Of a stretch of DNA of 64,000 bases, positions 40,679 through 64,000 are shown piece by piece. The notes beneath the pieces were generated by a model. It saw nothing but the letters and a program-made list of their open reading frames with translations, ran no database searches and was not told the origin of the DNA. Each line of letters starts with the position of its first letter. Within the stretch, counting starts at the first letter, position 1. The position numbers and the translations under genes are program-made. This stretch comes from Pomacea canaliculata (taxonomy: Eukaryota > Mollusca > Gastropoda > Architaenioglossa > Ampullariidae): assembly GCF_003073045.1 (NCBI RefSeq), contig NC_037591.1, forward strand, positions 22,787,319 through 22,851,318, given 5' to 3'.

Positions 40679-40771
40679 ATGGATGAAGGTATGACTTCTT
40701 ACGTCAGTTGCTGGAAACCTCCATGCCCGTTGTGTAAGGAGGCCAGGAAGACGGAGGAGGAGGAGATGGCG
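40679..40771 (+). CDS. Candidate first coding exon (31 codons)
   Basis: An ATG opens a frame that runs to a consensus donor GCG|GTAAGT. It encodes a Cys-containing segment, 'CWKPPCPLCKEARK', followed by acidic residues. It ends in phase 0, matching the candidate exon at 43,145, whose start continues the Glu/Lys-rich composition. There is no acceptor in phase with the 40,132 exon, so it would be an alternative first exon. Support is splice signals and open frame only. Confidence 0.3.
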
Positions 40772-41214
40772 GTAAGTCAGGTCATCGTGGTTAGTGCCAT
40801 TAGGTAACCGTAGCTAATGTTGTCTTTGATGTGGTACTTGTTCCTATAACCCACTCACACCTTACATCCAACAAAGGGAAGACTTCTAAAAACACGGAAG
40901 CGCGAGAGGAGCCATTTTAAACTAGATTAACTGCCGATGGCTGGAAGCCGGAAAATTGAATGTAATTCGCCAATATTGCCTAAAAAAACAATCAATATGC
41001 TCAACGCAGAAAAATCTTTTTAAAAAAATTATTTCGGACACCACCTGAATTTATAATGCTTGTTGAATTTTATGGATAAAGAAATGCCAAAGACTAATTG
41101 TGTCTGCTTAGAAAACTGTTCCATCACTCTTTACAGACAGCTGCACGACGTTGGACCGTAACTTTGTTAATGTAACTTTAGACTGTAGCTGTTAATGTAA
41201 CGTTAACCTATAAC

Positions 41215-41479: not shown

Positions 41480-41676
41480 ATGCCTTTCACTAGTCACAGT
41501 GCTGCCTATAAGCTGGGGTGTGCGGTTGTTATTCTAGCAACTGTTGTTGGTGCCGTGGGATTGGCCGTTCCAGGATGGCTGACATGCAGGGAAAAAAGCT
41601 GAATCTTTTATGGTCTTTAGAAATTATGCATCCACGAACTTGGACAACTTCACGGAGGTTATATTGGGTATCAATC
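41480..41676 (+). pseudogene. Dead first exon of a claudin-like gene (relic A)
   Basis: ATGCCTTTCAC opens 'MPFTSHSAAYKLGCAVVIL' then 'ATVVGAVGLAVPGWL', aligning along its length with exon 1 of genes B, C and F (MPFTSRSKLYILGYA...). After the conserved PGW the frame meets TGA. A few codons on, the conserved GLW codons read GGT CTT TAG (TGG changed to TAG). Both stops are in the ancestral frame, so the copy is inactivated. No matching exons 2 or 3 were found before gene B. A diverged copy of the cluster's downstream flank at 42,399 suggests a whole unit once stood here. Confidence 0.75.
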
Positions 41677-43210: not shown

Positions 43211-43914
43211 GTAAGCAAAAGTCGGAAAACAAGAATTTGTCTACTGTACGAAACATCACGATAGAACTTTCTCATTCTACACAGAGTTTAATTTGTAACT
43301 TAAAACGTGGCTATTAAAATTATAATTGTACAGAGGCTAACCTTTGAAGCTATAATTAGCACAATTTTCTTTTTGTGTTGTGAGGAAAAAAAATAGTTCC
43401 TACAGAGCATTTATCTGTGAAAACCCTGGCTAGGAAAATGTTGGGTGTGTTATAAATTTAATGTTACTTGTTCCCTAGGGCTGTGTTCAGTTTTCATCTG
43501 CCACGCCCAAACTTAGGAGACCTTAAGATCCACAAAAGATACCTCGTTAACTTAAAAATATGTTTTCCTCAGTTCAAAATTATGTGTTCTTCAGTTGGCT
43601 GTTTCCCTTATAATCGATTTGTGCACCGTTACATGTATTCACAACAACACACTGGGCAAAACACATACAGTACAGATGTTTATGCAAGTGGAGGGGAAAA
43701 AGCTCTGTCATTGTTACTGTACTTTCGTTCTGGAAAATAAAATGAAATATCAAATTACTAGATTAATTTTTTCGATGTCATGTGAGTCCCTGACTGCGGA
43801 GAAAGCGGAAGTAGCCTCTAGATGGCTCAAGTTTGACAGAGCAGGAACATGACCTCTCAGTCCGCACAGAGTGTTGGCAGTTGTCCCTCTGTCTATCACC
43901 CCTGACTCCATCAC

Positions 43915-44294
43915 GTGATTGCCACTTCGGCCCCAGAAAACAATCATTCTCATTTCTCCGACTGCAGCCGTAGGGACTCGTACTGCATTTGCCAACCGCT
44001 CAAGACCTATTGTCTTCACTGGACATCGTGCAGGACGTAGATATAACGCGCTTCAAACGTGAGTGGCTTCATTTGGTGTATCTCATCTCATCTGGATTAG
44101 ACGTTTGTAGAAGAAAATACTTCTTTATTTACACCTGAGAGAGTATATTTATGAAGCCAAGCTGATTCGTTGTATACAAAGACTTTAGACCTCTTCAGCT
44201 GCTAGCAACTCTGTCCGTTTCATACCTAATCATCTCCCCTTCGCATTTTTCTTTCTCTCCGTCTTCCCTCCTCTTAGCAACTACTACATACACG
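43915..44294 (+). promoter_or_regulatory. Promoter and 5' UTR exon of gene B
   Basis: A block strongly conserved with the copy at 47,730-48,099 contains an E-box (TCACGTGAT) near 43,912, a TATA-like GATATAAC at about 44,040, and a downstream candidate 5' UTR exon ending at donor CACG|GTAAGG (44,295). Gene D has the same order (TATATAAA, then donor TTCG|GTAAGT). The coding exon's acceptor (CTCTCTCTGCAG) is at 44,978-44,989. Confidence 0.5.
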
Positions 44295-44989
44295 GTAAGG
44301 TGGAGAGTGAAGGTCACGTGACGTTGGACACGGCTCGATGGCTGCTTTTTGTCGAGGACACTGCACTGGTGTTGTTTGCGGCTATTTCACTGACACAGTT
44401 CTCCAGGAGACTAGAGTCCCCACTTTAACACGGATATAGAGGCAGACATTGTTCGAAAGCCTCGTCCTGTATTTTATTGCCGGATGTAGTAGCTGTAGTG
44501 TGTATGTCAGAGCCATATGTACACAGGCTCACGAGGTTAGGGACTGTGATGATGATGATAATTTTTTGTGAGGTGCATTTCCCCATGTGAACACGAGCTA
44601 CGTGCGCTGCACTCAAAAGACCATGAAGTAACCGACCATGCAAAAAAAGAAAAAAAATCATAAGCGACCACCAAAGAGATAACATAAAATAATATACAAA
44701 CAGTAGTGCAACAATAAAGTGTTTCATGGAACTAAGTGAAAAAGCAAAAGTAGAACTCTGTACAACACATTAATGAGCCAGACTTATGCGAACTCATGTA
44801 GCCACTTCCATATATTTGAATATTGCTCGGAAAATTCTGCTGAACCTGTGAGTAAATCAAGAACTGTAAAAGACAAAAATTCAGAAAGATTTTATTCTAA
44901 AGATTAATGTTATAACGTGCTTGTTTGACTCACGACTCATACATCTCGATGTTTAACACCAACTCTCGCATATCTCTCTCTCTCTGCAG

Positions 44990-45093
44990 ATCATAAACAA
45001 ATTTGAAGACCTTTAGTGACCCAGGTGACGTCAGGACAGGTCAAGTCAGGCGATGACAGAGTCCACTGTGGACTTGTGAACTGACACACCATC
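44990..45093 (+). promoter_or_regulatory. Conserved 5' UTR segment with AGGTCA-type half-sites (gene B)
   Basis: Just upstream of the start codon lies GTGACCCAGGTGACGTCAGG then ACAGGTCAAG. C has AGGTCA and, 9 nt on, AGGTCA in direct repeat, and F has the same. These words are nuclear-receptor half-sites, though spacing 9 is unusual. Being inside the predicted exon, the block may instead act in the RNA. Confidence 0.45.
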
Positions 45094-46220
45094 ATGCCTT
45101 TCACCTCTCGCAGCAAACTTTACATTCTGGGATATGCAGGCGTTGTCTTGGCAACCGTTGCTGGTTCCGTTGGACTGGGCGCTCCGGGCTGGTTCATCAT
45201 AAGAAGTGACTTCATCGAGTTGTTCTGGGGTCTGTGGCAAACTTGTGCCCGCGGTTATGGACGGTTTGAGTGTACTTACATTGACCACGCATTATTCGAT
45301 AGTAAGTCGGAAGCAAGAAGGGAGAAATGAGCGATAAACAAAATTTATATGTTCCTTGTTTGTGAACATTTTCATTACAGGAAATGAAGACCACCTTGGA
45401 CAACAGAAGAAAACTAACGTGTGTGTATACTTGTGTAAAGGGGTGCTATGATGGTGATGTGATCAGGTAAAGAAGAAAGAAAAATGTGGATATCATTATT
45501 TAAAGAATAAATTAACGTTTATATATCTTAGAGTTCCTGATGGTTTTCTTTTTGCAGATTATATGAAGGCCACCCAGGCTATGGCATGCATCGGGGTGGC
45601 CCTCCTGATCGTGTCTACTCTGTACGGACTGTTTGTCAATATGTCGTCTACAAACTTGCCATCATCACCCATAGTCGAGACAACAGCATTGCTAGGGGGT
45701 GAGCAGCTTTCCAAAACTGAATCTCTTACATTTGAATGGTTTTATTGCTATAATAAACATTAAATTTTGAATTGGCTTCGAAGAAGGCGCCTCGCAAAAA
45801 CTGACAGGTGGATCAATTGTGAGTGAGTCTAGAAATTTTACAAACCTTCATTTCTTATATCATAGCCTATGATTGTGAGCAGGCGACTATTCACAAAAAG
45901 AGCTAAATGAAGGAAGACTTCAAAGAAAACGATGGAGAATACTTTGATATGAGGAAAAGAACAAATGAAAATACTTACATAGAAGGAGAATGATGATGAT
46001 GGATGATGATGATGATTTTCTTTGTGCAGGTCTGAGCCTTTTTATTGGCTGCATGGTGTGGGCAGGTTATAAGAAGAAGTATGTCCCCGAACATACTGAT
46101 TTTATCAGTTTCGGGTACGCCATGATAATAGCCACCATCGGCTCTGTCCTCGCTGTTCTGGCATCCGCCTGTGTGGCAGTAGCAAGCCGAAGAGCCGGGT
46201 CCTACCAGATCCTGTCTTAG
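45094..46220 (+). CDS. Claudin-like four-transmembrane protein (gene B)
   Basis: Exons 45,094-45,301, 45,558-45,698 and 46,030-46,220 (208+141+191 nt; both introns phase 1) give 179 residues. Donors are GATA|GTAAGT and GGGG|GTGAGC. Acceptors are TTTTTGCAG and TTTGTGCAG. TM1 is about residues 10-31, TM2 76-97, TM3 112-130 and TM4 144-167. The first extracellular loop has W33, GLW at 46-48, C51 and C60, the claudin/PMP22 superfamily signature W..GLW-x2-C-x8-C with the disulphide cysteine pair. The start codon is the one conserved in C, F and relic A. Family members sit in the plasma membrane and build junctions, pores or adhesion contacts. The second loop is very short and the C-terminus (SYQILS) lacks the classical claudin YV PDZ ligand. 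Nearest copy is C. Function is not assignable further. Confidence 0.82.
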
Positions 46221-46609
46221 ATGAAGAGACTGGACTTGACCTTTGTATCACATGTATTGTTTGCTTATGTGTTTTGTTTGGTTAATGGCTAGCAGTATTA
46301 GGTAAACCTAATTATAGTTTTTTCTGCACCAGAAATTGTTTCATTGATCATCCCCAGCTTGCATGTGAATCCTAACCAGACACAGTCTTTGAGTTTTTCT
46401 GCTTCCTTTTGTTGTTCTTGCGGCCCTATGCTCCTCGAGGAGTAACAAGGACTAAACTTTGTTGCTCTTTCTGAAAAGTTTTGAATAACGTGGATAGCTT
46501 TTATACAAGTCGACTGTATGTCTTCGAAGACAGTAGAAAATGTCACCTAAACCTGTTTTTCTCAGTCTCATTGTTCTCTCTCACTGGGCGGATCGGCAAG
46601 TGTGAGTTA

Positions 46610-46780
46610 AATAAAATTTTCGCAAAAGCACGCTAAAGAATTTTGTTTGCATTTTTGCCCATCCACTACTTTTGAAAACATTGGATTATTTGTACCTTGT
46701 ACATTTGTATTTCTTTACCTTGCCGGCTTTGTATCTTTGACATTGATGTCACCGGTGTCATATTGTTCACTTTTAATAAA
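46610..46780 (+). terminator. Polyadenylation signals of gene B
   Basis: AATAAA occurs at 46,610-46,615 and 46,775-46,780. The second is followed by T/GT-rich sequence. Both are conserved in the duplicate downstream of gene C. Confidence 0.6.
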
Positions 46781-47345
46781 ACAACATCTATAAATCTTAT
46801 TTTCGTCTCTCTTGTGATGAATGTAGATATTTACAATTACAATGTGTATATACAGCTACAATAACTAATTTTTAAACCGTACTCGCAAAATTTGTCATTC
46901 TCCGCAAAGATTCCAATTTTAAAAACTTATCTCAAGGAACCGCACATGTCGTCGTTGAGGTTATTATTCATCTCATAATTTTCTTGAAAACTCCGCAGCA
47001 AATAAAGAAGGAAAGCATCAAGAAAGGGAGGAAGTAAATAAATGATGGGAATAAACTAGAAAGTGAGGATAAAAGATTTGCTGGAAAGCATTGTTTTGTT
47101 CGCCGAGTGTTAGGTAGATAGCCGACGCTTCCTTCCTCCCTTCTGTCAGGACCCTTGAGTTGACCCGTCCACGTGACCTACCCGGAAATGAACGTGTTCC
47201 TGAGGAGGTCGTGCGCCGATGACTGTCATTTCAATAAAACAACAAAACAATGAAAAGTATTCATGTGCATGCGTGAAGAAAGTAACGAATGAAGCGGCTC
47301 CGATGGCCAGTTGACAACAGGATGAGGTGTGCAATGTTCGTGTGT

Positions 47346-47440
47346 TCTTTTTGGAAATCGACGCTTTTTTTGCCCTGTGGCAAAATAGTCTTCAAGTACG
47401 TGGAGGATTGTCCTGAAGTTACTTGGACTACAAAAGTCTT
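47346..47440 (+). pseudogene. Orphan half-exon relic related to gene D
   Basis: Starting at TTTTTGGAAATCGAC and running through the donor GATG|GTAAGTC and about 50 nt of intron, the sequence matches the second half of gene D exon 1. It has an extra T shifting the frame, the first conserved Cys changed to Ser (AGT) and the second replaced by a stop (TGA). The TM1 half, exon 2 and exon 3 are missing. It sits exactly at the joint between duplicated copies 1 and 2, so it is a recombination scar. Confidence 0.8.
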
Positions 47441-47729
47441 GATGGTAAGTCAAAGAGTGGGAGTGGGGTGGGGAGGAAGCTTCCTGAACTCCATGTTTAT
47501 GCAAGTGGACGGGAAAAGCTCTGTCCTTGTTACTGTACTTTCGTTCTAGAAAATACATTGAAATATCGAATTACTAAATTATTTTTTTCGATGTCATCCG
47601 AGTCCGTGACTGCGGAGAAAGCGGAAGTAGCCTCTAGCTGGTTCAAGTTTGACAAAGCAGGAACGTGACCTCTCAGTCCGCACAAAGTGTTGGCAGTCGT
47701 CCCTCTGTCTATCACCCCTGCCTCCATCA

Positions 47730-48099
47730 CGTGATTGCCACTTCGGCCCCAGAAAACAATCATTCTCATTTCTCCGACTGCAGCCGTAGGGACTCGTACT
47801 GCATTTGCCAACCGCTCAAGACCTATTGTCTTCACTGGACATCGTGCAGGACGTAGATATAACGCCTTTAAAACGTGAGTGGTTTCATTTGGTGTATCTC
47901 AACTCATCTGGATTAGACTTTTTCAGAAGAATTTTTTTTTATCTTTGCACCTGAGAGAGTATATTTATGAAGCAAAGCTGATTCGTTGTATACAAAGACT
48001 TTTGACCTCTTCAGCTGCTAGCAACTCTGTCCGTTTCATCTCCCATCGCATTTTTCTGTCTCTCCGTCTTCCCTCCTCTCAGCAACTACTACATACACG
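47730..48099 (+). promoter_or_regulatory. Promoter and 5' UTR exon of gene C
   Basis: Duplicate of the gene B promoter block, with an E-box (TCACGTGAT) near 47,728, GATATAAC at 47,856-47,863, and an untranslated exon ending at CACG|GTAAGG (48,100). The next acceptor (CTCTCTCTGCAG) ends at 48,398. The AGGTCA direct repeat lies at 48,432-48,452. Confidence 0.5.
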
Positions 48100-48494
48100 G
48101 TAAGGTGGGGAGTGGAGGTCACGTGACGTTGGACACGGCTCGATGGCTGCTTTTTGTTGAGGACACAGCACTGGCGTAGCTTGCGGCTATTTCACTGACA
48201 CAGTGCTCCAAGAGACTAGAGTGCCCACTTTAACAGGGATATAGAAGCATTGTTCGAAAATCTCATGCTGTATTTTATTGCTGGATGAGTTCAAAAAGAT
48301 TTTATTTATAAAGACTAATGTTATAACGTGCTTGTTTGACTCACGACTCATAAATCTCGATAATTGACACCAACTCTCGCATCTCTCTCTCTCTGCAGAT
48401 CATAAAAAATATCGAAAACCTTTAGTGATCCAGGTCACGTCAGGACAGGTCAAGACAGGCGACGACAGAGTCCACAGTGAACTGACACACCACC

Positions 48495-49682
48495 ATGCCT
48501 TTCACCTCTCGCAGCAAACTTTACATTCTGGGATATGCAGGCGTTGTCCTGGCAACCGTTGCTGGTTCCGTTGGACTGGGCGCTCCGGGTTGGTTCATCA
48601 TAAGACGTGACCCCATCGAGATCTTTTTTGGTCTGTGGCAAGCTTGTGCCCGAAGTTATGGACATTTTGAGTGTACTTACATTGACTACACATCATTCGA
48701 TCGTAAGTCGGAAGCAAGAAGGGAGAAATGAGCGATGAACAAATTTTATGTGTTGCTTGTTTGTGAACATTTTTGTTACAGGAAATGAAGACCACCTTGG
48801 ACAACAGAAGAGTTATTTTCTCATTTGTAGTATGACTAACGTGTGTGTATACTTGTGTAAAGGGGATGATATGATGGTGATGTGATCAGTAGAAAGAAGA
48901 AAGAAAAATGTGGATATCATTATTGAAAGAATAAATTAACGTTTATGTACCTGTTTATGTACCTATGATTTCATGATGGTTTTCTTTTTGCAGAATTTAT
49001 GAAGAAAATCCAGTCTGCGGCGTGCATCGGGGTGGCCCTCCTGATCGTGTCTACTCTGTACGGATTGTTTGTCAATATGTCGTCTACAGATTTACCATCA
49101 TCACCCATAGTCGAGACAACAGCATTGTTAGGGGGTGAGCAGCTTTCCAAGACTGAATTTCTTACATTTGAATGGTTTTATTGCTATAATAAACATTAAC
49201 TTTTGAAAAGACTTCGAAGAAGGCGCTTCGCAAAAACTGACAGGTGGATCAATTGTGATTGACTCTAGAAATTTTACAAACCTTCAATTTTTTTATATCA
49301 GAGGCTGTGATTGTGTATTAAAGTTGTGAGCAAGACGACGATTCAGAGAAAGAGGTAAATGAAGTAAGATTTCAAATAAAACGATGGAGAATACTTTCAT
49401 ATGACGAAAAGAACAAATGAAAATAGCTGATGATGATGTTGATGCTGATGCTGCTGCTGATGATGATGATTATTATTTTTTTGTGCAGGTATCAGCCTTT
49501 TGAGTGGCTGCATAATGTGGGTATTTTATAGGAACTTGTTTTCCGCCGAACTTCTCTCTGATATTGTCAGTTTCGGGTACGCCATGATAATAGCCACCAT
49601 CGGCTCTGTCCTCGCTCTTCTGGCGTCCGCCTGTGTGGCAGTAGCAAGCCGAAGAGCCGGGTCCTACCAGATCCTGTCTTAG
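48495..49682 (+). CDS. Claudin-like four-transmembrane protein (gene C)
   Basis: Exons 48,495-48,702, 48,994-49,134 and 49,489-49,682 (208+141+194 nt, phase 1/1) encode 180 residues. TM1 is identical to gene B. The extracellular signature is W33, GLW 46-48, C51, C60. Compared with B, the first loop differs at ten residues, the start of exon 2 at six, and TM3 with the second loop almost throughout ('GCIMWVFYRNLF' against 'GCMVWAGYKKKY'). TM4 and the tail are the same but for one residue. Introns and 3' UTR stay nearly identical. Predicted plasma-membrane tetraspan. An AATAAA lies at 50,232-50,237. A recent duplicate of B whose extracellular face has diverged selectively. Confidence 0.82.
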
Positions 49683-50231
49683 ATGAAGAGACTGGACTTG
49701 ACCTTTGTATCACATGTATTGTTTGCTTATGTCTTTTGTTTGGTTAATGGCTAGCAGTATTAGATAAATCTAATTACAGTTTTTCTGCACTAGAAATTTT
49801 CATTGATCATCCTCAGCTCGCATGTGAATCCTAACCAGACACAGTCTTTGAGTTTTCGGCTTCCTTTTGTTGTTCTTGCGGCCCTATGCTCCTCGAGGAG
49901 TAACAAGGACTAAACTTTGTTGCTCTTTCTGAAAAGTTTTGAATAACGTGGATAGCTTTTATACAAGTCGACTGTGTGTCTTCGAAGACAGTAGAAAATG
50001 TCACCTAAACCTGTTTTTCTCAGTCTCATTGTTCTCTCTCACTGGGCTGTGGGCAAGTGTGAGTTAAATAAAATTTTCGCAAAAGCACGCTAAAGAATTT
50101 TGTTTGCATTTTTGCCCATCCACTACTTTTGAAAACATTGGATTATTTGTACCTTGTACATTTGTATTTCTTTACCTTGCCGGCCTAGTATCTTTGACAT
50201 TGATGTCACCGGTGTCATATTGTTCACTTTT

Positions 50232-50237
50232 AATAAA
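50232..50237 (+). terminator. Polyadenylation signal of gene C
   Basis: AATAAA about 550 nt past the stop codon, in the position matching the gene B signal. Confidence 0.6.
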
Positions 50238-51187
50238 ACAACATCTATAAATCTTATTTTTGTCTCTCTTGTGATGTATGTAGATATTTACAATTACAAT
50301 GTGTATATGCAGCTACAATAACTTATTTTAAAACCGTACTCGCAAAATTTGTCAGTCTCCGCAAAGATTCCAATTTTAAAAGCTTATTAACTCATGGAAC
50401 CGCACATGTCGTCGTTGAGCTTACTATTCATTTTTTTTCTTGAAAACTCCGCAACAAACAAAGAAGGAAAGCATCAAGAAAGGGAGGAAGTAATTGAATG
50501 ATGGGAATATACTACAAGGTAGGATACATTTTGCTGGATGGCATTGTTTTATTCGCCGAGTTGTAGTAACAGAGGGCCGACGCTTCCTTCCTCACTAGTG
50601 TCAGGACCTTGAGTTACCCCGTCCACGTGACCTACCCGGAAATGAACGTGTTCCTGAGGAGGTCGTGCGCCGATGACTGTCACTTCAATAAAACAACAAA
50701 ACAATGAAAAGTATTCATGGGTATGCGTGAAGAAGGGAACAAATGAAGCGGCTCCGATGGTCAGTTGACAACAGGATACGGTGTGTGATGTTCGTGATGT
50801 GATGGATAATGTTGTGAACATTCCAGGCCGGAGTGACGACCGTTTGTTCGAACTCAGCGGCTCGACACACCAGTCACATAATTAGACTGGAGTTAGTGTT
50901 TTCCTAGTTACGACAACCGTGTTTATGCATACCATACCTAACCCTTACCCCAAAACACAAAAAGTGAGTGGGTGGGACAGGGTCTCGTGACAGACAGTGA
51001 CCTGATTAACTGATGTCTGATGGACTCAGTCACACAATTCACACATTCTTATGGCCGTCCTTGCAAGGGGCTGTCGTCTGATATCTCCGACAACAACCGG
51101 ATTTTCTTCCCGTGGGAGACCCGTACTACATGCACATGTTATCAAAGGCCAACAGACCCTGTTTTCCTTCCTGCAACCTGCCCTGGA

Positions 51188-51666: not shown

Positions 51667-52642
51667 ATGCCTTTCAGTGGGCGCACCAGAACTTACCGTG
51701 TGGATATGCATTCGTTGCCCTGGCAACAGTTGCTGCTACCGTAGGATTGGGAGCTCCAGGCTGGATGATAAGAACAGATCTTTTTGGAAATCGACACTTT
51801 TTCGGCCTGTGGCAAAATTGTGTTCAAGTTCGTGGAGGATTGTCCTGTAGTTACTTGGACTACAAACGTCTTGATGGTAAGTCAAAGAGTGGGGTGGGGT
51901 GGGGGAGGACACTTCCTGAACTCCATTACTACGATGTCTGAACCTGTGATAAGCAAATGTGTTTTAGCTGATTGTAAGGACATGACATGGAAAGTTTAAT
52001 TTATGTTGTTACGTACATAGGGGTGTATGTATTAAAGGGTGGGGGAAGTAATAGGGAAGGAAGATAATAAAGAAAAAGTTATAAAGATGAAATTATGAAT
52101 GAAAGAATTAATACAATTATTAATTATTAATTTATTTTATCTTTCGAGTACCTTGTTCCGAGGTTTTCTTTCTGCAGATTATATGAAAACCACCCAGGCT
52201 ATGGCGTGTATCGGGGTGGCCATCCTCATTGCGTCTACTCTGTATGGAATGGCTGTCAACATGGAGTGTACAGATTCTCCATCATCGCCATTCGTCGAGA
52301 CATCGGCGTTTCTAGGCGGTAAGTTTGTCACTTCAAATCCTCAAGCTTGAATCTTTTATTTAACACAATCTTGGAGGATGTAATAATTTTAAGATATTGT
52401 GACAAGAACAAGGAAATATTCATTGATAAAGCTTGGCTGATGTTGCTGATGATTGTCTTTGTGCAGGTTTGAGCCTTTTCATTGGCTGCATGGTGTGGGC
52501 GGCTTACAGGGACAAGTTCTTCATCCCAATATTGGACAGTTTAGGTTATGCCATGATACTGGCTACTGCTAGCTCTGTCCTCGCTATTCTCGCCTCTTTT
52601 CTTGTGGCAATAGGAAGTCACCAAAGGTTTACAATCAGATAG
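51667..52642 (+). CDS. Claudin-like protein with frameshifted first exon (gene D)
   Basis: Exons 51,667-51,876, 52,178-52,318 and 52,467-52,642 have phase-1 introns and canonical sites. Exon 1 starts ATGCCTTTCAG like its paralogues, but one base is missing around codon 12 (CGTGT|GGATATGCA, where the others have a full CTG codon). The ATG frame therefore does not reach the TM1-GLW frame, and no upstream ATG exists in that frame. Downstream all is intact: PGW, GLWQNC-x8-C, TM2, TM3, TM4, ending TIR. Without the indel the product would be 175 residues. Exon 2 and 3 integrity suggests a recent lesion, a segregating null allele or a base-calling error. It has its own TATA box. Family role as for gene B. 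Confidence 0.65.
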
Positions 52643-54047: not shown

Positions 54048-55146
54048 ATGTTCACGTGCACCGGCAAGTCCCTAGGTTATCAAGGTGGGGTAACTCTCAT
54101 CATTCTTGCCACCGGACTGGCACTGGCTGGCACCGCGACCCCCAGGTGGCTGATCCTGACGTCACAGGCCGGTGACGTCGCTGCGAAAGGTTTATGGATG
54201 ACATGCGCAGACCTTTCGCTGCAGAACTGCTCAACCATAGCGCTGAAGGATTTCGCCGGTTAGTGTCTGTGCGTTGTGTGTGTGTGTGTGCTTTCAAGAG
54301 CTCGGTAGACAGTTTTTTTGGAAAAGAATGAATATTAATTCGACTTGCATATATTTTGTCTCTGCGCGTGAGTGAGAGTGAGTAATTAACGGACTGTGGG
54401 AGAGTATATACTCTCTTGCGTATGTGGCGAGAGATCATCAGGCTTTAAAATGTAACAAAACAAATTTTTTCTGTCAGGGTTTGAGAAGTGGACTCAGATC
54501 ATCGTGATGATGGCAGATCTGGCGTTTGTCTGTTCATCGTGGAGGGCCCTAAAGTACGATAACTCAGTGACCTTTCCGAAGACAGCCGAGTTGTTGGCCT
54601 TTTATGGAGGTATGTACCATACTCGGTGCTCCAGGCGGATTATTTAATTTTTTCCGACAACGAGCGGTGGGATTGAGGGATGGGTGGATGGTCTGTTGAA
54701 CCTATGATTGACCCTGGACTTGTATGACTGATAATTTTCTTTCTCTTTGCCTTTTTGTCAGGAGAGCACTTCATCATACGTATGCATGCAAACACAAGCA
54801 CGCAGGCGAACACACGCACGCACGCACGCGCACAGATTACGTAATACGCACGCGTATCCACCACAGTGAATTATTTATTTCTGTTACAGGCGTTCTTAGT
54901 TTCATCGGTGCTGTTATCTACGCTGTAAACACGAAGCGACTTGACGACACTGCCTATGGTTTCGGGTTTTTCCTGGTCGCGGCGGCCGCCATTGTGGGCG
55001 TGGCTGGAGGACTGGTGGTGGCCAATCAGAACTGGACTGAGTGGATAAAGGACCAATCGTTGAGCAGCGAGGTCAACCACAGGGGCGCACTGACAGAATT
55101 CAACATGTCCAGGCTGCAGAAGATGAATTCTATTAAACCGAAGTAG
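54048..55146 (+). CDS. Divergent claudin-like four-transmembrane protein (gene E)
   Basis: Exons 54,048-54,258, 54,478-54,609 and 54,890-55,146 (211+132+257 nt, phase 1/1) give 199 residues. The start ATG (MFTCTGKSLGYQ) lines up with the paralogues. The longer open frame upstream lacks TM-like sequence and is taken as 5' UTR. TM1 is about residues 13-31. W34, GLW 48-50, C53 and C61 form the signature, with an N-glycosylation sequon at N60 (NCS). TM2 follows 'FEKWTQ', TM3 is 'GVLSFIGAVIYAV' and TM4 is the Ala/Val-rich segment after YGFGFF. The cytoplasmic tail is about 45 residues, much longer than in B-D and F, and ends SIKPK. The exon layout is shared but the sequence is far from the B/C/D/F group, so it is an older branch. 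An AATAAA is at 55,577. Confidence 0.78.
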
Positions 55147-55576
55147 GGGAGAACAAAAAGATTCACGCATTTCTAAAAACTGTTATAGCCAAGCATTGTG
55201 ATCACTTTGTTTCTCCCATTTCTCTCCTTCTGTTTGAACAATCCGTGTTTCGGTCCCAGCTTTCATTGTGTTCCACACTTGTATGTTAGTCTGGCTGGTT
55301 TTGAGTCCCATCTCTCTCTCGCTCCGTTAGCAATGCAAAATGCAACTGTTTGTCATTATCATTCAGTGCTACTCGTTGAGTGCTAGACGTGTAGACATTT
55401 TAATGATCACTGTATTCTACATTCCATGTTTCCAACACAGCTCTAAATAATGTCCCTACGTGGGATTTAATGTTACCAACACTGGGTAGTTGAAGTCTTT
55501 AAGAATTAGTCGTTATACCTTTATACCATTGGATGTCAGAAATTAATCCGGTATATATATAAAATATAAATATAGA

Positions 55577-55582
55577 AATAAA
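55577..55582 (+). terminator. Polyadenylation signal of gene E
   Basis: AATAAA about 430 nt after the stop codon, in an AT-rich stretch. Confidence 0.5.
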
Positions 55583-55934
55583 TATATAATTCTGCATTGG
55601 GAGTGTGTACTGTGTACTATATAGCTTCAGTTAGAAGGAATGTTTGAAGGTTTATGTCAGTACTTCCTTACACAGAATACTTTCTCCTTCCCAATTTGAC
55701 TGCTCAGTCAAGTATTACCAGGACACTACTATGTATCGGGGGGAGAGGGAAGGGAGGGCTAGAGACCAGTACAAAGCGCGGAGCTCACCCTTTCTCCCGC
55801 ACTTGTACTTCCAACGTCTAACGCACGCTGTCTTGGTCTCCTCTTTTCCACTTTTAAAAGGAAATTTTAAAACCCTGACTGATTCATTGTAGCAAATGTG
55901 CATCGTCCCGGGTCCATGCACTCTGTTCAAGCTG

Positions 55935-56077
55935 TGCGCATGCGTAGCTGCTGCCACGCTGCGCATGCGCGGTATAAATTAGGAATGTTTATTTGGGACA
56001 CAAGGCCTTAAAAGCGGAGGTCTAGTACTACACGTTGGGTCTTCCCGCTCATCGCCGATTTTTTTCATCTCACACAG
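55935..56077 (+). promoter_or_regulatory. Promoter with two NRF1-like sites, TATA box and first exon
   Basis: TGCGCATGCG at 55,935-55,944 and a perfect GCGCATGCGC at 55,961-55,970 match the NRF1 palindrome. TATAAA follows at 55,973-55,978. A strong donor CACACAG|GTGAGT at 56,078 would close a non-coding first exon of about 75 nt. It most likely serves gene F (acceptor at 60,277), which would give F a 4.2-kb first intron holding both hAT elements. This link is an inference. Confidence 0.55.
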
Positions 56078-56143
56078 GTGAGTAATTGTTTCATTTGTCT
56101 ATTTTTTGTTTCGATGCTACACAAGCGACCTATCACTCGTATC

Positions 56144-56405
56144 CAGGCCCGTTCTTAGCCCCCGCGGGGCCCGAGGCAAAGGGCATGTGCGGGGCCCTCA
56201 CGCCACGATCACACGGTTTTAGTTGGGATCTAAAGTCACTTTTTTCCTCAGGGATATCTTGTCTTTTATCATTGACAGCACGCTGCATACACATTACAAC
56301 ATAAGCCTACGATTAATTTATTTGTAACGTTCGTCAATAGGTTACAATCAAAAGCGCGGGGCCCTAGGCAGATGCCTCGTCCGCCTGCCCCTAAGCACGG
56401 CCCTG
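56144..56405. mobile_element. Non-autonomous hAT element (MITE), 262 bp
   Basis: The left end CAGGCCCGTTCTTAG and the inverted right end CAGGGCCGTGCTTAG match at 13 of 15 positions. Both continue into GC-rich GGGGCCC blocks. The element is flanked by a perfect 8-bp duplication CTCGTATC (56,136-56,143 and 56,406-56,413), diagnostic of hAT insertion. There is no coding capacity. Confidence 0.85.
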
Positions 56406-57383
56406 CTCGTATCCCATTGTGCTCACAAAGTGTTGGCGGCCTTTTCTCTTTGCCTCTAGCGCCTCTCGGGTCTCGTGTTCCTCGCGAGCTATTTGTTAGG
56501 GACCCTGGTGATGTCACACACACACATTCCCGCGTTCTTACTACAAAGCACAAACAATTGCCTGTAGGCTGTCCAAACACACATAAAATTTCTGGGCCCA
56601 AGACAAATATTAACACACACATCTGTACTACACAATGTCCGGGTGGTCACGGCCGCCTGAACAGCACAAAACAAAACTATCTTTGCATGTAAACACCCGA
56701 GCTATGATATAGCTATGAGCTATGATAAGCGCATTAGATATCAATATGAAGATTTAAAAGAAAAAAACTTTCACACAGCCAGATAAAAATCCAGTTGAAG
56801 GTCATCACAGCCGTTGTATAGTATATACGTTGTATAGAAAATTAAAAACAGCAAACGGTGCTCTGGTATCCAACGGCATCAAGTCACCTCTTACCAAATG
56901 TCAAGTGAAAATCACACGGTCGCTTCATCCAGAAGTTAAGAGTTACCAAAACAAACAACAAAACAAGCAAACAAATCCAAAAAAAAAAAAATAAATAAAA
57001 TAAACCCCACCTACTACCCCAGGCATGGTAGATTGATTAAAAATAGAACACACAACAGGTAAGTTTTACACAAAATCCACACAGTCACTTCTCATTCACT
57101 TTTACTTCTCTTCTCCTGTTCTTGACTCACGCCTTTCTCTATTTTTCTTACCCGCTCTCATGAACAGTTTTAAAAGTTTACAACCCCATCATCGGGGGAG
57201 AGAACTACGACCTGTTGACATTCGCTACTTTCGTTTTAATTTCGCGGTAAACACGCCTTGACACTATTATTCTCTCGTTTTTCCTGTTACACCCCGGGGA
57301 ATTGGGGAAGATGGGGGTTGGAGTTGGGGCTCATACTACATTTACCAAAAAATCTATGATCAGTTCTTACTGATGGTGTATAC

Positions 57384-58695
57384 CAGCGGTTCTCAACCTG
57401 TGGGTCGCGACCCCCTGGGGGGTCGCGACGTGCCTACAAGGGGGTCGCGAAGGTGGTCATTTTTTAAAAAAGTTTCTTATACCGTATTAGTGAAATTAGT
57501 TTACATTGTGTAACCGAGTGGTGAGGGCGATCAAACTCCAAATGTCTTCTCCCTATTCAACTACACTGTCTCGGCATGCAGTGACTTCTCACTTCCAAAC
57601 TCAAAACACAATCCCCCTCTCAACAATTAAGCCTCCAATCTCCCTCCTCTCGCCTTTTGCCCTCTCTCTCCCCCAATCTCTCATCGCTGACTCCCCTCTC
57701 CCTCTCCAGTCACACCTCTCTTTTTTTTTTTTAAACATCTAAAAGGCACGCATTCAGGAAACGTCCATCATTCACACCCTTTCATTCGCACGTGCTCACT
57801 GCTCAGTCCTAGTACTCTATAGGTCCCTGACAGAAGGCGATGACCAGACAAGGGAAAGACACCACCATATTACAAACAACTGACAAGATGAATGCTTTCG
57901 TCCGAAAATTTCGTTGTGGACGCAAAAGATACGCCAAGAAAATATTTTTGATATGTTTCCGTGCTTGTGTAAGTGCAAGGCTAACAACTTGATCAGGTGA
58001 AGAATGTAATTATTGCCCATCTAAGCGGACTGCAAGAAAGGTTTCAGCATTACTTCGCTGAAATTGATGTGACTAAATACGATTGTATTCGTAATCCATT
58101 TCTGGCTGATCCTAGCACAAGCGGGTTGTCCACAGAAGAAGAGCAGCTCATCGACCTTTCGAGTGACCAATCCCTGAAAATGGTCTTCCAAACAACACCA
58201 GTGCCAACATTCTGGATTAGCATCAACGGTGCTTTCTGAGAAAGCAATGAAAGTTCTTCTAACATTTTCAACTTCATATATGTGTGAGCAAGGATTTTCA
58301 GCATTGGCAGCACTGAAGTCGATACAAAAATCGTGTGGACGCAGAGGCTGAGCTGCGAATAGCAATGGGTACAAACATCGCACCAGGTTCGCTTCTCTAT
58401 GCAACAGCAAGCAGGCTCAACCTTCTCATTAATCAAAGAGAGTGTCCAAATAAAATAATATTTATTAGCACGCAGAATTTGCTTTAGTAACATTTCATTA
58501 ACAGTTATACTTCTTGCAGATACGAACTTTGTTCTTCCGTTGTTGATTTGTATTGATTTCTTCGACGCGGCGTTCGACGTTAGCTAGGGCTCCCTCCCCC
58601 CCCCCCGCTTTCCACCACCTAGCTGGCTAAGGGGGTCGCGGACGTACCGGTGTTCGTCAGGGGGGTCGTCACATGTAAAAGGTTGAGAACCGCTG
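57384..58695 (+). mobile_element. Internally deleted hAT transposon with transposase remnant
   Basis: The 16-bp perfect terminal inverted repeat CAGCGGTTCTCAACCT is followed by GTGGGTCGCGACC, typical of the ZBED5/ZMYM6-like (Charlie-type) hAT group. An 8-bp target-site duplication GTGTATAC is at 57,376-57,383 and 58,696-58,703. Inside, about 57,890-58,440 holds pieces of the transposase C-terminal part: 'DKMNAFVRKF', 'NIFDMFPCLCKCKANNLI', 'VKNVIIAHLSGLQERF', 'LSTEEEQLIDLSSD', and the hATC dimerisation block 'KVLLTFSTSYMCEQGFSALA'. These are broken by frameshifts and stops. The BED finger and the catalytic core are gone, so the copy is non-autonomous. Confidence 0.9.
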
Positions 58696-59241
58696 GTGTA
58701 TACAATACGCTTAAAAAGTGACAGTTGGCAAACATCCGCTTGTACCATTACATTTTGTTTTTAGCAGTTTGCGTCTGAATATTTTCTTTTAGGTGTTAAG
58801 CTTTGGAACGGTGTAATGTCTGCTGTTCGTGTTAGTGTAGTATAAAGTCCACTGAATTTCGTTCCTGCTGTGATACCAGAATCATCTCATATTCCCTGTA
58901 GCTCAAAACGAATTTAAAAAAATTACTGTTCATTTATAAATAATTGTGTATATTACACTGTTGCTCACTAAAGTCCTATTTTTAAGTTCTGTGTCACACG
59001 TACTAAAATGTACCAATAAGTAGATATACATCACATATACAGAAATTGACAAAACAAATTAATTGTTTGGCTAAGTCTGTCAACACATGTGACCTGATTT
59101 TAGTGTTTACATCGCACTCCGTCTGAAGGGTAGGGGCAGTAAGATCCACCTTTAAAAACAGTCATTTTTTCCCCTCGAGAAACTTTTTTTAACGGTTGAA
59201 CAACTTTGTGTACAGAGATAAAATACATGCAATGCTTTTTA

Positions 59242-59245
<4 letters not shown>

Positions 59246-59290
<45 letters not shown>
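59246..59290 (+). repeat. (ATT)n microsatellite
   Basis: About 15 perfect ATT copies. On the minus strand they read as a poly-Asn artefact. Confidence 0.95.
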
Positions 59291-59291
<1 letters not shown>

Positions 59292-60277
59292 AACCAATGG
59301 TTAATACTGTGCTAACATTTCTGATTTACAAAGCCTAAGGCCACGTGTGGTGTTGTCAGCAGCGACATGGCAGTTTGCATATATTTCTGTTGTACCACAC
59401 GGTAACGGACTCACATTTAGTTCTCTTTGTGTTGTTATTCAGGCTGATGGCGGAAAAGGAAAGTTTCAAAATAAGGGAAAAGAGAGGCCGAAGTTTAAAA
59501 AAAGAGAGTGAGAGAGAATGAAGAATGGGTCAGACTGAACTTATTTATTTGTGTGTTGTGTTGGTTTGTAAAGATTTCCTCCCATTTCATGCATGATTTT
59601 ACCAGTGTGCCTTGAGTGTCTTCTTGAAGGAGGAAAGAATTGACAGTTCAGGAACAAGTAAAACACGTGTGACTGTTGGGCTCAAATGCCTGGCGCAAGA
59701 CCCCAGCACCCGTCCTTTCAGATCGTCGTCCAGGAGTTTTGAAGGGATTAATCCTGTAGAGACAAAATGTTACCACATTCTCGTTTACTTAAAAATACCG
59801 CATGGTAACAGGGAAGAACAAAACACTTCACATTTACGAGAAAAGTCATGTACTTCAAACATGACATAAAACTTGTTTAAGTCATCTGCAGAGCCCCCAG
59901 CAGGACATCCTACCTCTTGTTGTCCCGTCACCCACCCTTTCTGTTCAGTCCCAGCCATGCCTCACGTGCGTTCCCTCCCTTTAGTTTCATCATCACATAA
60001 AATTAAAATTAAATCCTTAAAGCATATTTATTATGTGAACTTCAGGAAATCAATCACTCTTTGCAATTTTCATATCAGTAGAGTTTTAGAATCAACAACG
60101 TGTTCAATCTAGTATTCTAGTTCAACGAGGGCTCATGCGGTCATTTCAATGTCTGTAAGGCAGTTCGGAACGATTTTATTTCTAGAGACTGGTGTACAGT
60201 ATGCTTGACTTACTTGCTTGACTCCCAACTGAAAAACCATCGGCCTTTGACACCATCCCATGTATCTTCCTCCACAG

Positions 60278-60372
60278 ACCGTGAGTGACCCAGGTCACAT
60301 CAGGACAGGTCAAGGCAGGCGCTGCTGTGGATCCGCGGTGGAGACTGTGGACTTGTGACCTGACACACCATC
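60278..60372 (+). promoter_or_regulatory. Conserved 5' UTR segment with AGGTCA direct repeat (gene F)
   Basis: Downstream of acceptor TCCTCCACAG the exon begins GTGAGTGACCCAGGTCACAT and continues CAGGACAGGTCAAGGCAGG. AGGTCA occurs twice, 9 nt apart. The arms GTGACC/GGTCAC form an inverted repeat with a 2-nt centre. The block and the CTGACACACCATC before the ATG are shared with genes B and C, though the flanks further upstream have diverged. Confidence 0.45.
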
Positions 60373-62157
60373 ATGCCTTTCAATTCTCGCAGCAAAGTTT
60401 ACATTCTGGGATATGCAGGCGTTGTCCTGGCAACCGTCGTTGGTTCCATTGGACTGGGCGCTCCGGGCTGGTTCATCGCAAGAAGTGACATCAGCGAGTT
60501 GTTGACGGGTCTGTGGCAAGTTTGTGTCCAAGGTTTTTTGGTTTCCAGAGAAGTTCGTCTGTACTTACATTGACTACGAATCATTAGACAGTAAGTCCAA
60601 CGAATAAAAGATTAGTTTAAGATTGGGAAATATTAGTTTAAAGGGTTAGTGCAGTAGACCTTTTTTCTAAGATTGGGTAAAACTTCTTTGTGCGAGATAC
60701 TATTTCCTCAACTCTAAGGGAACATCCCATTTCCGTGAGATATAATAACACAAAAGTGATTTAAAAAATGTGACTTGCTGCTTATTCATGATCTCAACTT
60801 TTCCATTAAATGAGGCCTTGACAACGTAAGAGCACCTATGAACAACAAATAGCACGAATTTCTTGTTATTATTGTTATTTTCTGTTTTGCAAAATTGCCT
60901 TTAAAGGAAATTACCAACACCAATATAAAAAAAGAAAGGAAGTATTTTCACGTTTACATCTGTGTGTGCATGCATGTGTGGCAGACAGAAAGAAGTGAAG
61001 AGAGAAGTTAAAGAGGGTTGGGGAGTTAGGAAGGAAAACCAAAAAGAAAAGAAATTTGATAAATGATGACTGAAAGCATAATTAGATAAGTTACGGATCT
61101 TTGAGTACCAAATTCTCGAAGTGTTATTTCCGCAGATTACCAAAAGGCCACCCAGGCTATGGCGTGTATTGGGGTGGCCCTCCTGATTGCGTCTACTGTG
61201 TACGGACTGTTTGTCAATGTAGTATCCACAAATTCGCCATCGTCACCTTACGTTGAGATCCTTGCCTTGTTGGGTGGTAAGCATCTTGTCCTTTCCAAAT
61301 CTCAACAGATTTTTAAGATTAAAAGGGTCTGTTGACTAGGTCAGAATTGTCAGTTCGTTCGAATAAATTCGTCTGAACACGCTTGGCTGAAACTTAGAAG
61401 TTGGTGCTGAAGTGATGGGGGAGGGAGGGGGAAATGGTGTTTTACAGCAAAGCGCAAAGTCTGTAATCAGATGTCACAATCAGAGAAAGAACAGCCTGCC
61501 CGCGACGAGATCTGAACCCAGAACACCCAATCCTCAGTGCATTGTTGACAGGTGCTAGCCAATACGCCACCAGACTGTCTAAATTGTTGCTGATACCAGG
61601 CGTGGGTCGCATTAAAATATTGTTGCCTTTCTCAGGTGCTAGTCGACTTTGATAAGCTGGACCTAAATAGCCACTTTAGACTGTTAACCTAAAACTCGTT
61701 TTGAAGAACTGTCATACACTCCAAGCAACTTTCACGTTAAGTAACAAACAAACAAAACTGAGGCTTAGAGTCCGAACCAGGACTTCATGTTAAACCCGAT
61801 CATGAAACTGAAGATTAGTGCTTTTTCTGACATCGGGGACAACAGGAATCTTGTGCACTAGAGGAAAAAGGGAAACATTTTATCTAGAACTGAGATGATG
61901 ACGATGACGATGACGATGACGAGTGATGGTGATGGTGATTGATGATTGATGATGTATTTTTTCTTTGTGCAGGTGTGAGCCTTTTTATCGGCTGCATGGT
62001 ATGGGTAGGTTATAAGTACAACTTTTACTCCGATCCAGGGGTCAGTTTGGGTTACGCCATGATAATCTCTACTATTGGCTCTGTCCTCGCTATTCAGGCT
62101 TCTGTGTGTGTGGCAGTAGGAAGCCGGAGAAATGGATCCTACCAGCAAATTCAATAG
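60373..62157 (+). CDS. Claudin-like protein with frameshifted first exon (gene F)
   Basis: Exons 60,373-60,590, 61,136-61,276 and 61,973-62,157. TM1 (MPFNSRSKVYILGYAGVVL) and GLWQVC are intact. A run of six T (GGTTTTTTGG, about 60,533-60,538) then throws the frame to a stop at TACATTGA. With five T the frame would pass through 'FVCTYIDYESLD' into the conserved donor, putting the second Cys ten residues after the first and giving 180 residues in phase. Exons 2 and 3 are intact with TM2-TM4 and end QQIQ. Exon 1 is 218 nt against an expected 217. It is either a recent null allele or a homopolymer miscall. It is the outermost member of the cluster and probably transcribed from the NRF1/TATA promoter at 55.9 kb. 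Confidence 0.7.
61440..61585 (-). mobile_element. tRNA-derived SINE in gene F intron 2
   Basis: The minus strand carries an A-box-like TGGCGTATTGGCTAGCACCT and, about 40 nt on, a B-box-like GGTTCAGATCTC. A CTTTGCGCTTTGCTG tail follows. This is the architecture of a polymerase III SINE head with a LINE-like tail. Confidence 0.55.
61892..61953 (+). repeat. (GAT/GAC)n tract before exon 3 acceptor of gene F
   Basis: GATGAC and GGTGAT repeats end about 20 nt before the exon 3 splice acceptor. Comparable GAT tracts sit at the same place in gene B (45,991-46,017), gene C (49,428-49,472) and gene D (52,437-52,455). Confidence 0.85.
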
Positions 62158-63869
62158 TATGTGACTTTCTCTATGTTGCTATTCGGTAGTTAATGACCAA
62201 CAGAGGCGAGGTAAATCTGATGATAGGCTCTCTGTAGCAGTAACGATTGTGTGTTTGTTTTGTAGTTTTGTTTGTGTTTTTATATTTAGGCTCAACTTAC
62301 ATTTGAGTCTGTAAAAGATAGACACAGTAACTTGAACTTTCAAACTTTGTTTTTGTTTTCATTGCTGTGAATTGTTAGACAGTGTCACAAAAATACACTA
62401 CAAAGAAGTCTGCAAACTGTGCAAGCCTGTAAACCAGCATTTCTGAAAAGGTAATCGAGAGCTTCACCATAAACCTCTCACATTCGAGAATTCTCTGTTG
62501 CTATGTAAAATGTAATATTTATCGTGATGTAACTACAGTGAGCCTCTGTGTGTGTATTTTGTTTTTGTTTGTTTCCTTTTTTAAATGGCGATATATTTAG
62601 TCTTTAATTGATAGAGAAGGTGGGCCAAGGCTTGACCGACCTAAACAGGCCTAGATGAACAGGCTTATTCATCCAGCGATCTGCCTAGTGACCTACAATC
62701 ATCTGTAATAATCCGCAACAGTCTGCGTGTAGCCACAAGAATCGGTTCCACCATCTGCAATCATCTGCCCAGCTACCGGCTCAGCCATCTCCGATCATCA
62801 ACTCAGTTATCACTTGAATCACCCCAGCTATCCTCACGCGTTCATTCGGTTTGACTATTTAACACCACCATTCATCACAAGACACCAGTCCCTGGTACAA
62901 CAACCTGATGGTTCAGATCGTCAGGAAGAATCCAGACAAATGACAGTGACAGTCCTTGATCCAGGTCGCTCGTCACAGGACACTGCCGTAGAACATTCGT
63001 GATCACCTGCGTTTATTTTCTTTTTTAAAAATTTTTTTAATACTTAAAATTTGCTAATAGTTGGTCGGCCCTTTCTGCATTTTGAAAAAGACAGAGGAGT
63101 ATAGCGTGGGTGTGGTCGCGCATAAAGCAGCCACTTAAAACACTTCTCATCAAAAAGTTACAGCTGCTGAAGTTAATTTACTAGTAATTTTGAAAATCCT
63201 AGATTAGTAGGCATACCGGATTAATTCCAAAATAAATTTCAAAATTTCACCTTGTCATTGGGAAAAAAAAATATTGTTTAAAGACAGTGTTCACATTACT
63301 TGACAAGCGCACAATTTCAAATGACTTTTAGTCAGTTTTTGAAGGTAACACATTATGATTTTACTTATTTATCATATTTACTGTGTTGATAAACCATCAA
63401 ATGAGTCTTTAAAAATATATATGAATATAGTTTCTGAAGCTTTTCTAGCTTTTTGAAACCGATATGCGTGCACACGCACAGTTAATCTAAAACTATTAGT
63501 TTTTGTACATTAACTTTGCCCTTTAACAATGTATAAAAATGCATTATTATATTTTATTTAGTATTCTTAATGCCATATTCATTGTCTTCACTCGTTTAAT
63601 GCTAATTAGAAGCATTAAACTAGACATTATAGACAATACTCTTTTTTTATGTTGTTCATCGACGCTGGAGTGCAAGTTACTGTTGGCGAGATAAAATAAG
63701 GGGAGAGAACGATTATGTGATTAAAAGTTCGTCCACTTTTAGGGACATTACTTCCCTTTCATTCTTCTTGCGAGCTTTTGGTGAACACACAGGACGTGAA
63801 TGACACTCGTTTCTAGGTCTCTTTCTCTCAGAGAGTCTCTGTAAACAACCAAATGTAAACAGCTCTTCG
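62158..63869. other. 3' flank of gene F, no gene recognised
   Basis: Unique AT-rich DNA. Short TG and T-rich tracts occur near 62,540-62,580. The segment 62,640-62,830 repeats words such as ATCATCTG(C/T) and GATCATC, a weak degenerate repeat. No coding exon is supported. Confidence 0.5.
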
Positions 63870-64000
63870 TCAAATGGTGTGTTTTAGGGTTTTTTCTATT
63901 CTCCATCTACATTAATGATCTTCCCCCACATAACCCAACTATGTGAGGTGTTTGCAGACGACACAAAAATACACGCACACCACTAACTGATTGAGCCACT
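63870..64000 (+). pseudogene. Non-LTR reverse-transcriptase fragment at window end
   Basis: In two frames separated by a frameshift are 'FSIYINDLPPH' and 'LCEVFADDTKIHAHH', the RT block-4/5 signature in which FADD holds two catalytic aspartates (usual form LLFxIYINDLP...LFADDTKI). The preceding GVF*G replaces the GxxLGP block. This is a CR1/jockey-type fossil running off the edge of the window. Confidence 0.78.

Follow-up and report, generated by a model that had tools for sequence, protein, structure and literature searches.

We analysed a tandem array of claudin-like genes within a 64,000-nucleotide stretch of the genome of the snail Pomacea canaliculata (C2:22787319-22851318, hereafter the window). 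The array consists of paralogues that we name A (a pseudogene), B, C, D and F in the window, with G lying to its right. Within two twin pairs, B/C and F/G, the outward loops of the predicted membrane proteins have changed faster than non-coding DNA and the remainder is nearly fixed. This contrast is indicative of natural selection on extracellular contacts. Positive selection on the loops of this array, repeated in the second pair, is the best explanation that we can offer, and we consider it probable.

Divergence of B and C by segment

Genes B (179 amino acids) and C (180 amino acids) are both intact, and their structures were observed directly, the spliced models having three exons, GT-AG introns and open frames. 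Coding exon 1 of B (45094..45301, + strand), an open frame ending at a GT donor, holds the start, the first transmembrane segment (TM1) and most of extracellular loop 1, including a W-GLW-C-C motif; exon 2 (45558..45698, +) encodes the end of loop 1, TM2 and the intracellular loop, and exon 3 (46030..46220, +) encodes TM3, loop 2, TM4, the tail and the stop. The corresponding exons of C, taken from its spliced model and the codon alignment with B, lie at 48495..48702, 48994..49134 and 49489..49682 (all +), the last with a loop 2 longer by one codon. The W-GLW-C-C motif, which we take to be the claudin loop 1 signature, is invariant in the aligned G, B, C, E (a more distant gene described below) and D, all five retaining W33, GLW46-48 and both cysteines (B numbering). 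Against the PF00822 (PMP22_Claudin) cutoff of 26.7 bits, B (37.6) and G (40.7) score above and C (25.6) and E (23.4) below, these four being the genes scored. Hydropathy maxima fall near residues 16, 84, 120 and 156 in B, C and G, compatible with four predicted membrane helices, and the dip at loop 2 is nearly gone in C. Upstream, homology between the 5' leaders of B and F (45007-45093 and 60276-60372) starts near a splice-acceptor-like AG in both genes, so that an upstream non-coding exon is likely.

The alignment of B with C contains three fast-changing patches. Codons 1-36 differ at 2 of 108 bases (1.9%), giving two silent codons and no replacement, and the rest of exon 1, within loop 1 (45202..45301, +), differs at 17 of 100 bases, beside an intron at 7.0%; codons 37-69 hold 10 replacement and 2 silent codons. 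The second patch (45558..45587, +), at the start of exon 2, takes in the end of loop 1 together with the outer end of TM2, and its 30 bases carry 10 of the 15 differences in that exon, the remaining 111 bases contributing 5. The third spans TM3 and loop 2 (46030..46108, +), where 21 of 79 bases are changed (27%); across codons 118-144, 17 of the 26 aligned codons are replaced and none is silently changed. This is the pattern of the original prediction, which had described a nearly fixed TM1 half, a diverged loop 1, exon 2 differences concentrated at the start, and a TM3 and loop 2 different at most positions. It had also called the remainder almost identical, which holds for TM4 and the tail (2/112 bases, 1.8%; one replacement and one silent codon in codons 145-180) and for the 3' untranslated region (UTR; 2.3%), but not for the introns, at 7-10%.

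Introns and 3' flank represent the neutral level for this pair: 18/256 (7.0%) in intron 1, 26/272 (9.6%) in intron 2 excluding a GAT repeat (42/331, 12.7%, including it) and 50/534 (9.4%) in the flank. Relative to this flank, the 3' UTR (about 46221-46800 in B and 49683-50260 in C) has few differences (13/575, p 2e-7), reflecting either constraint or a conversion tract. With the loops set at codons 33-75 and 131-145, 24 of 57 loop codons are replaced, against 4 of 108 in the remainder without TM3 (Fisher p 1e-9).

The second pair and a limited control

Genes F and G display the same contrast. Their codons 1-36 differ at 1/108 bases (0.9%) and the rest of exon 1 at 26/100, plus 13 gap bases; none of the 4079 non-coding 100-base windows of this pair reaches 26 differences. 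Exon 2 differs at 6/141 bases, loop 2 at 5/30 (17%) plus a 9-base gap, TM4 and the tail at 2/107 (1.9%), the introns at 42/518 and 40/597 (7-8%, with one repeat at 14/92 set aside), and the 3' UTR and flank at 53/771. Replaced codons number 19 of 52 in the loops and 6 of 108 in the remainder without TM3 (Fisher p 1e-6). The loops that changed between B and C have changed between F and G too, and TM3 and the start of exon 2 have changed in B-C only. Gene E and its partial copy E', which belong to the same duplicated block as F and G, provide a limited control, E' lacking exon 1 and carrying a frameshift in exon 2. In exon 3, the part used, their loop 2 differs at 1/35, silent as read from the alignment.

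Substitution rates and site models

The loop limits were drawn by eye from claudin topology after we had seen B-C and the exons of G, and they are consistent with the subsequent hydropathy run. Because the boundaries were chosen after seeing B-C, the F-G pair and a boundary-blind site model are fairer checks than the B-C loop contrast. Gap codons, the extra codon of G in loop 1 and, from the neutral sets, the GAT repeats of intron 2 were left out of the counts. F was masked at codons 55-57 (the region from codon 54 to the second cysteine), the F-G comparison covering 40 of 43 loop 1 and 12 of 15 loop 2 codons, and codons 1-12, 34-45 and the tail of D were excluded.

Replacement substitutions per replacement site (dN) in the loops amount to 0.285 for B-C and 0.218 for F-G, and elsewhere, without TM3, to 0.022 and 0.026. 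Non-coding divergence is 183/2636 and 301/4376, 6.9% in each pair, so loop dN is three to four times the non-coding divergence. The loop excess over non-coding DNA claimed at the outset for B and C is thus observed directly in two twin pairs. By loop, dN is 0.535 in loop 2 and 0.219 in loop 1 for B-C, and 0.196 and 0.225 for F-G. In likelihood fits with a shared time and non-coding calibration, loop omega (the dN/dS ratio) is 3.65 for B-C (twice the log-likelihood difference, 2ΔlnL, 29.5, p 6e-8), 3.22 for F-G (19.5, p 1e-5) and 3.42 for both pairs (48.4), or 3.97 with a longer non-coding set; omega for the rest of the protein is 0.30. Fits to coding sequence only give loop values of 4.10, 4.30 and, together, 4.14 (2ΔlnL 16.4, 12.0 and 28.2). 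For codons with at most one change, loop omega is 2.26 in B-C (p 0.009), 1.93 in F-G (p 0.040) and 2.09 in both (p 9.5e-4). When differences are merged into events, the loops still exceed non-coding DNA, at 26/169 against 156/2636 in B-C (p 2.7e-5) and 19/150 against 270/4376 in F-G (p 0.003).

Site models M2a and M1a were compared with our own script (not codeml), with no loop boundaries and with naive posteriors. The original prediction supposed dN/dS above 1 in the loops, and this was recovered, 2ΔlnL being 35.0 for B, C, F, G and D and 30.6 for B, C, F and G. When the four-copy set was simulated under the null, with separate exon 1 and exon 2/3 branch lengths, the maximum was 5.3, none of 114 simulations reaching 30.6. 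For exons 2 and 3 alone the value was 7.7 (p 0.021). Codons with a posterior above 0.8 lie inside the loops in 15 of 18 cases (five copies), 12 of 14 (four copies) and 11 of 18 (exons 2 and 3). The five-copy set comprises ten codons in loop 1 (38, 40, 43, 45, 50, 53, 57, 59, 66 and 67), codons 135, 136, 139, 141 and 142 in loop 2, and codons 112, 178 and 180 elsewhere. Eleven codons are replaced in both pairs, against 4.9 expected over the protein (p 0.002).

Weighing the explanations

We read B, C, D, F and G as tandem copies of a single claudin-like membrane protein with four predicted helices. Recent duplication gave rise to young pairs, B/C and F/G at the least. Within both, purifying selection would keep the scaffold (TM1, most of TM2, TM4, the tail and the W-GLW-C-C core), and positive selection would have replaced residues of extracellular loops 1 and 2. 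If, as in claudins, the outward binding surface is made by the loops, the selected change may alter the binding partner, be it a parasite, another claudin or an adjacent cell. In C, TM3 and the outer end of TM2 have changed as well, and part of the change therefore resembles directional remodelling of one copy. A recognition or host-pathogen role for the loops is suggested by analogy; candidate partners are cells, mates, parasites or simply ions. More tentatively, and with some doubt on our part, the array may be a diversifying surface recognition set, in which a conserved four-helix frame carries two variable loops, reshaped by selection following every duplication and used in recognising mates, self or parasites.

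Several results weigh against positive selection on the loops. Replacement versus silent change within the loops alone gives a pooled binomial p of 0.10, a weak test because silent changes there are too scarce, and the shared hot codons are not significant within the loops (11 against 8.0 expected, p 0.076). Allowing the loops a neutral rate of their own weakens the rejection of omega = 1 to p 0.020 for both pairs and p 0.023 for B-C (p 0.007 with TM3 included), and for F-G alone omega = 1 is not rejected (p 0.33), so that a locally raised neutral rate in the loops keeps some residual probability. Loop changes also run together, each event comprising 1.35 (B-C) and 1.68 (F-G) differences where non-coding DNA has 1.17 and 1.11, a pattern expected from multi-base mutation or conversion, and 61 of 2438 non-coding 100-base B-C windows carry at least 17 differences, as in the exon 1 patch. 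Loop 2 of F-G gives p 0.056 taken singly and p 0.087 compared with loop 2 of E/E', TM3 of F-G is not fast (3/48), and when exons 2 and 3 are taken by themselves, 7 of the 18 codons with a high posterior fall outside the loops. Silent change in F-G outside the loops and TM3, at 3/87, is lower than non-coding divergence, which may mean that coding silent sites are constrained or converted. In addition, C falls just below the Pfam cutoff and has a hydrophobic loop 2, F and D are frameshifted, and the gaps of the codon alignment were placed by hand.

Because silent loop changes are few, the strongest non-adaptive rival is gene conversion, in which old duplicates would have been homogenised except in the loops, these retaining old neutral divergence. 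The unusual likeness of the B/C 3' UTR and TM4 favours it, as do the few silent changes in F-G just given and, as a further point against selection, those in TM1 of B-F (3/27.5, against 29.5/62 in TM2 with the intracellular loop and TM4 with the tail, p 7e-4); relative to the omega model, loops with a 2.9-fold neutral rate lose only 2.5 log units when both pairs are fitted, and fit equally well for F-G. However, the introns between the patches stand at 7-10%, so conversion tracts would need to end close to the same exon borders in B/C and in F/G; an extra loop rate is not needed once omega is free (p 0.52), omega = 1 with an own loop rate is rejected for the two pairs together, and the null simulations, with their differing exon branch lengths, never reach the observed value. 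Conversion alone with neutral loop rates, the alternative singled out in the original prediction, is compatible with F-G by itself but fits both pairs together, or B-C including TM3, poorly, and we hold it to be decidedly unlikely. Two further candidates were rejected: relaxed constraint does not yield rates above those of introns, and for multi-base mutation, omega for both pairs falls to 2.1 when multi-change codons are dropped, with p still <0.001.

Other accounts retain selection and change its object. Directional functional change in single copies after duplication, mostly C and partly G, in place of continuing diversification, is possible although we do not favour it. Polarised with F, G and D, the B-C differences give 17 replacements in C and 5 in B (22 polarisable, p 0.017; 13 ambiguous), 8 of the 17 striking residues identical in B, F, G and D, and C is altered in TM3 and at residues 70-78, positions on which the other copies are mostly in agreement. 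The change is accordingly not only in the ectodomains, C being altered within TM3 and at TM2's outer end as well as in the loops. Against a purely directional account, F-G shows the same loops changing, G having 10 replacements and F 6, with another 10 ambiguous, and loop codons are prominent over the whole tree in the site model. That selection acts on how permeable the paracellular route is to ions or water, through loop charge and not recognition in this freshwater snail, we judge rather unlikely. Residues of claudin loop 1 determine pore charge selectivity (PMC3153257), a claudin of the freshwater prawn Macrobrachium has a reported dN/dS of 1.45 and 1.60 in a study of freshwater adaptation (PMC6450038), and loop net charge in the array ranges between +1 in D and -4 in G, some codons of D and F being masked. 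Yet the loops of B and C are only one charge unit apart, and loop 2, the claudin segment that makes trans contacts and to which a bacterial toxin binds (PMC11490706, PMC3153257), is faster than loop 1 in B-C and about equal to it in F-G. We give very little credence to an assembly artefact, whether alleles placed in tandem or base errors. The published assembly does come from long reads of a heterozygous animal (PMC6129957), and F and D are frameshifted, but the reported heterozygosity of 1-2% compares with a non-coding divergence of about 7%, no N occurs in the window or in the loci examined (L001-L010), and errors are not expected to concentrate at loop replacement sites.

If positive selection on the loops is the true cause, loops outrunning neutral DNA in two pairs would make the claudin scaffold a candidate for recognition or parasite escape, and B/C and F/G would be ready-made pairs for loop-swap tests in a probable major invasive pest snail.

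Organisation of the array

The duplications are seen directly by self-BLAST. The tandem unit carrying B (43676..47494) is 89-91% identical to the repeat on the C side, with 43676-47342 recurring at 47493-50796 mainly as two pieces, one 89% and the other 91% identical. At the junction of the B and C units lies a stop-containing fragment of D exon 1 (47346..47494, +), 91% identical to 51779-51926 in D; the copied segment thus extended from the left of C into D, and the fragment marks the duplication breakpoint. About 1 kb lying between C and D is missing at this junction, and the arrangement is compatible with a single tandem duplication. A 393-base stretch upstream of B (44487-44879) is missing at C (48288-48289). 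Gene D, the third paralogue (51667..52642, +), is one base short in codon 12, being either a pseudogene or the product of an assembly error. To the left, self-BLAST finds broken claudin-like exons in opposite orientation, at 40726-40875 (-) and 41480..41671 (+); the latter is A, an exon 1 pseudogene with two stops, and together they are what remains of one or more further copies.

The second tandem block (54325..64000), which contains part of E plus F, recurs in pieces with G at locus L009 548-9848, right of the window, the longer pieces being 85-92% identical. Gene E (54048-55146, +; 199 amino acids, exons joined by eye) overlaps its left edge, and E' (L009 817-2078) has its frameshift from a 4-base deletion. 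Gene F (60373..62157, +) is frameshifted near a T run between the two cysteines of loop 1, and its twin G is intact, encoding 181 amino acids in L009 6276-6486, 7021-7161 and 7897-8090.

A search with B of the whole assembly (440,159,624 bases, 24 contigs) returned at least 16 matches at E<=0.001 among 24 scored candidates. All lie in C2:22828798-22859399, so the close copies found form a single cluster; the query being B, a donor elsewhere resembling C's patches only may exist. Weak claudin-like matches occur at 32897-33043 (-; an exon with GLW and C, E 0.011, self-BLAST) and right of G at about L010 6112-6778 (32-37% identical to B, E 3e-4 and 0.72). A C2H2 zinc-finger gene lies at 38202-39587 (+), with a 461-codon frame open from stop to stop and 13 zf-C2H2 stretches.

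Comparison with known systems

The array genes resemble claudins in their four hydrophobic segments, the W-GLW-C-C motif, a short loop 2 and, for B and G, PF00822 scores above cutoff. Classic claudins end in a PDZ-binding YV, from which the C-terminal ends of B and C (ILS) and of F and G (QIQ) differ. No claudin was found among solved-structure matches up to E 10, in searches with a single sequence (10 hits) and a profile (9 hits). In classic claudins, the loop 2 residues required for folding and trans contact are highly conserved (PMC3153257), whereas the loops are the fastest-changing part of the snail array.

Apart from the prawn claudin, the titles and opening abstract lines of the matches listed in the open literature mention neither positive selection on claudin loops nor mollusc claudin arrays, and the five open papers naming the snail and claudin include, by title and start of abstract, none about its claudins. 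The Macrobrachium gene is likewise a claudin with dN/dS above 1, but it comes from a between-species comparison, with neither tandem twins nor a loop contrast described in the excerpts consulted. A comparable pattern, in a mollusc, is that of abalone sperm and acrosomal proteins, where duplication was accompanied by rapid selected protein change (PMC9022041, PMC6952181); the likeness lies in tandem duplicates under rapid selected change. The abalone proteins are secreted by sperm, whereas those of the snail are predicted four-helix membrane proteins. Claudins are usually regarded as conserved barrier parts, and on our reading members of this family would here behave like fast-evolving recognition duplicates.

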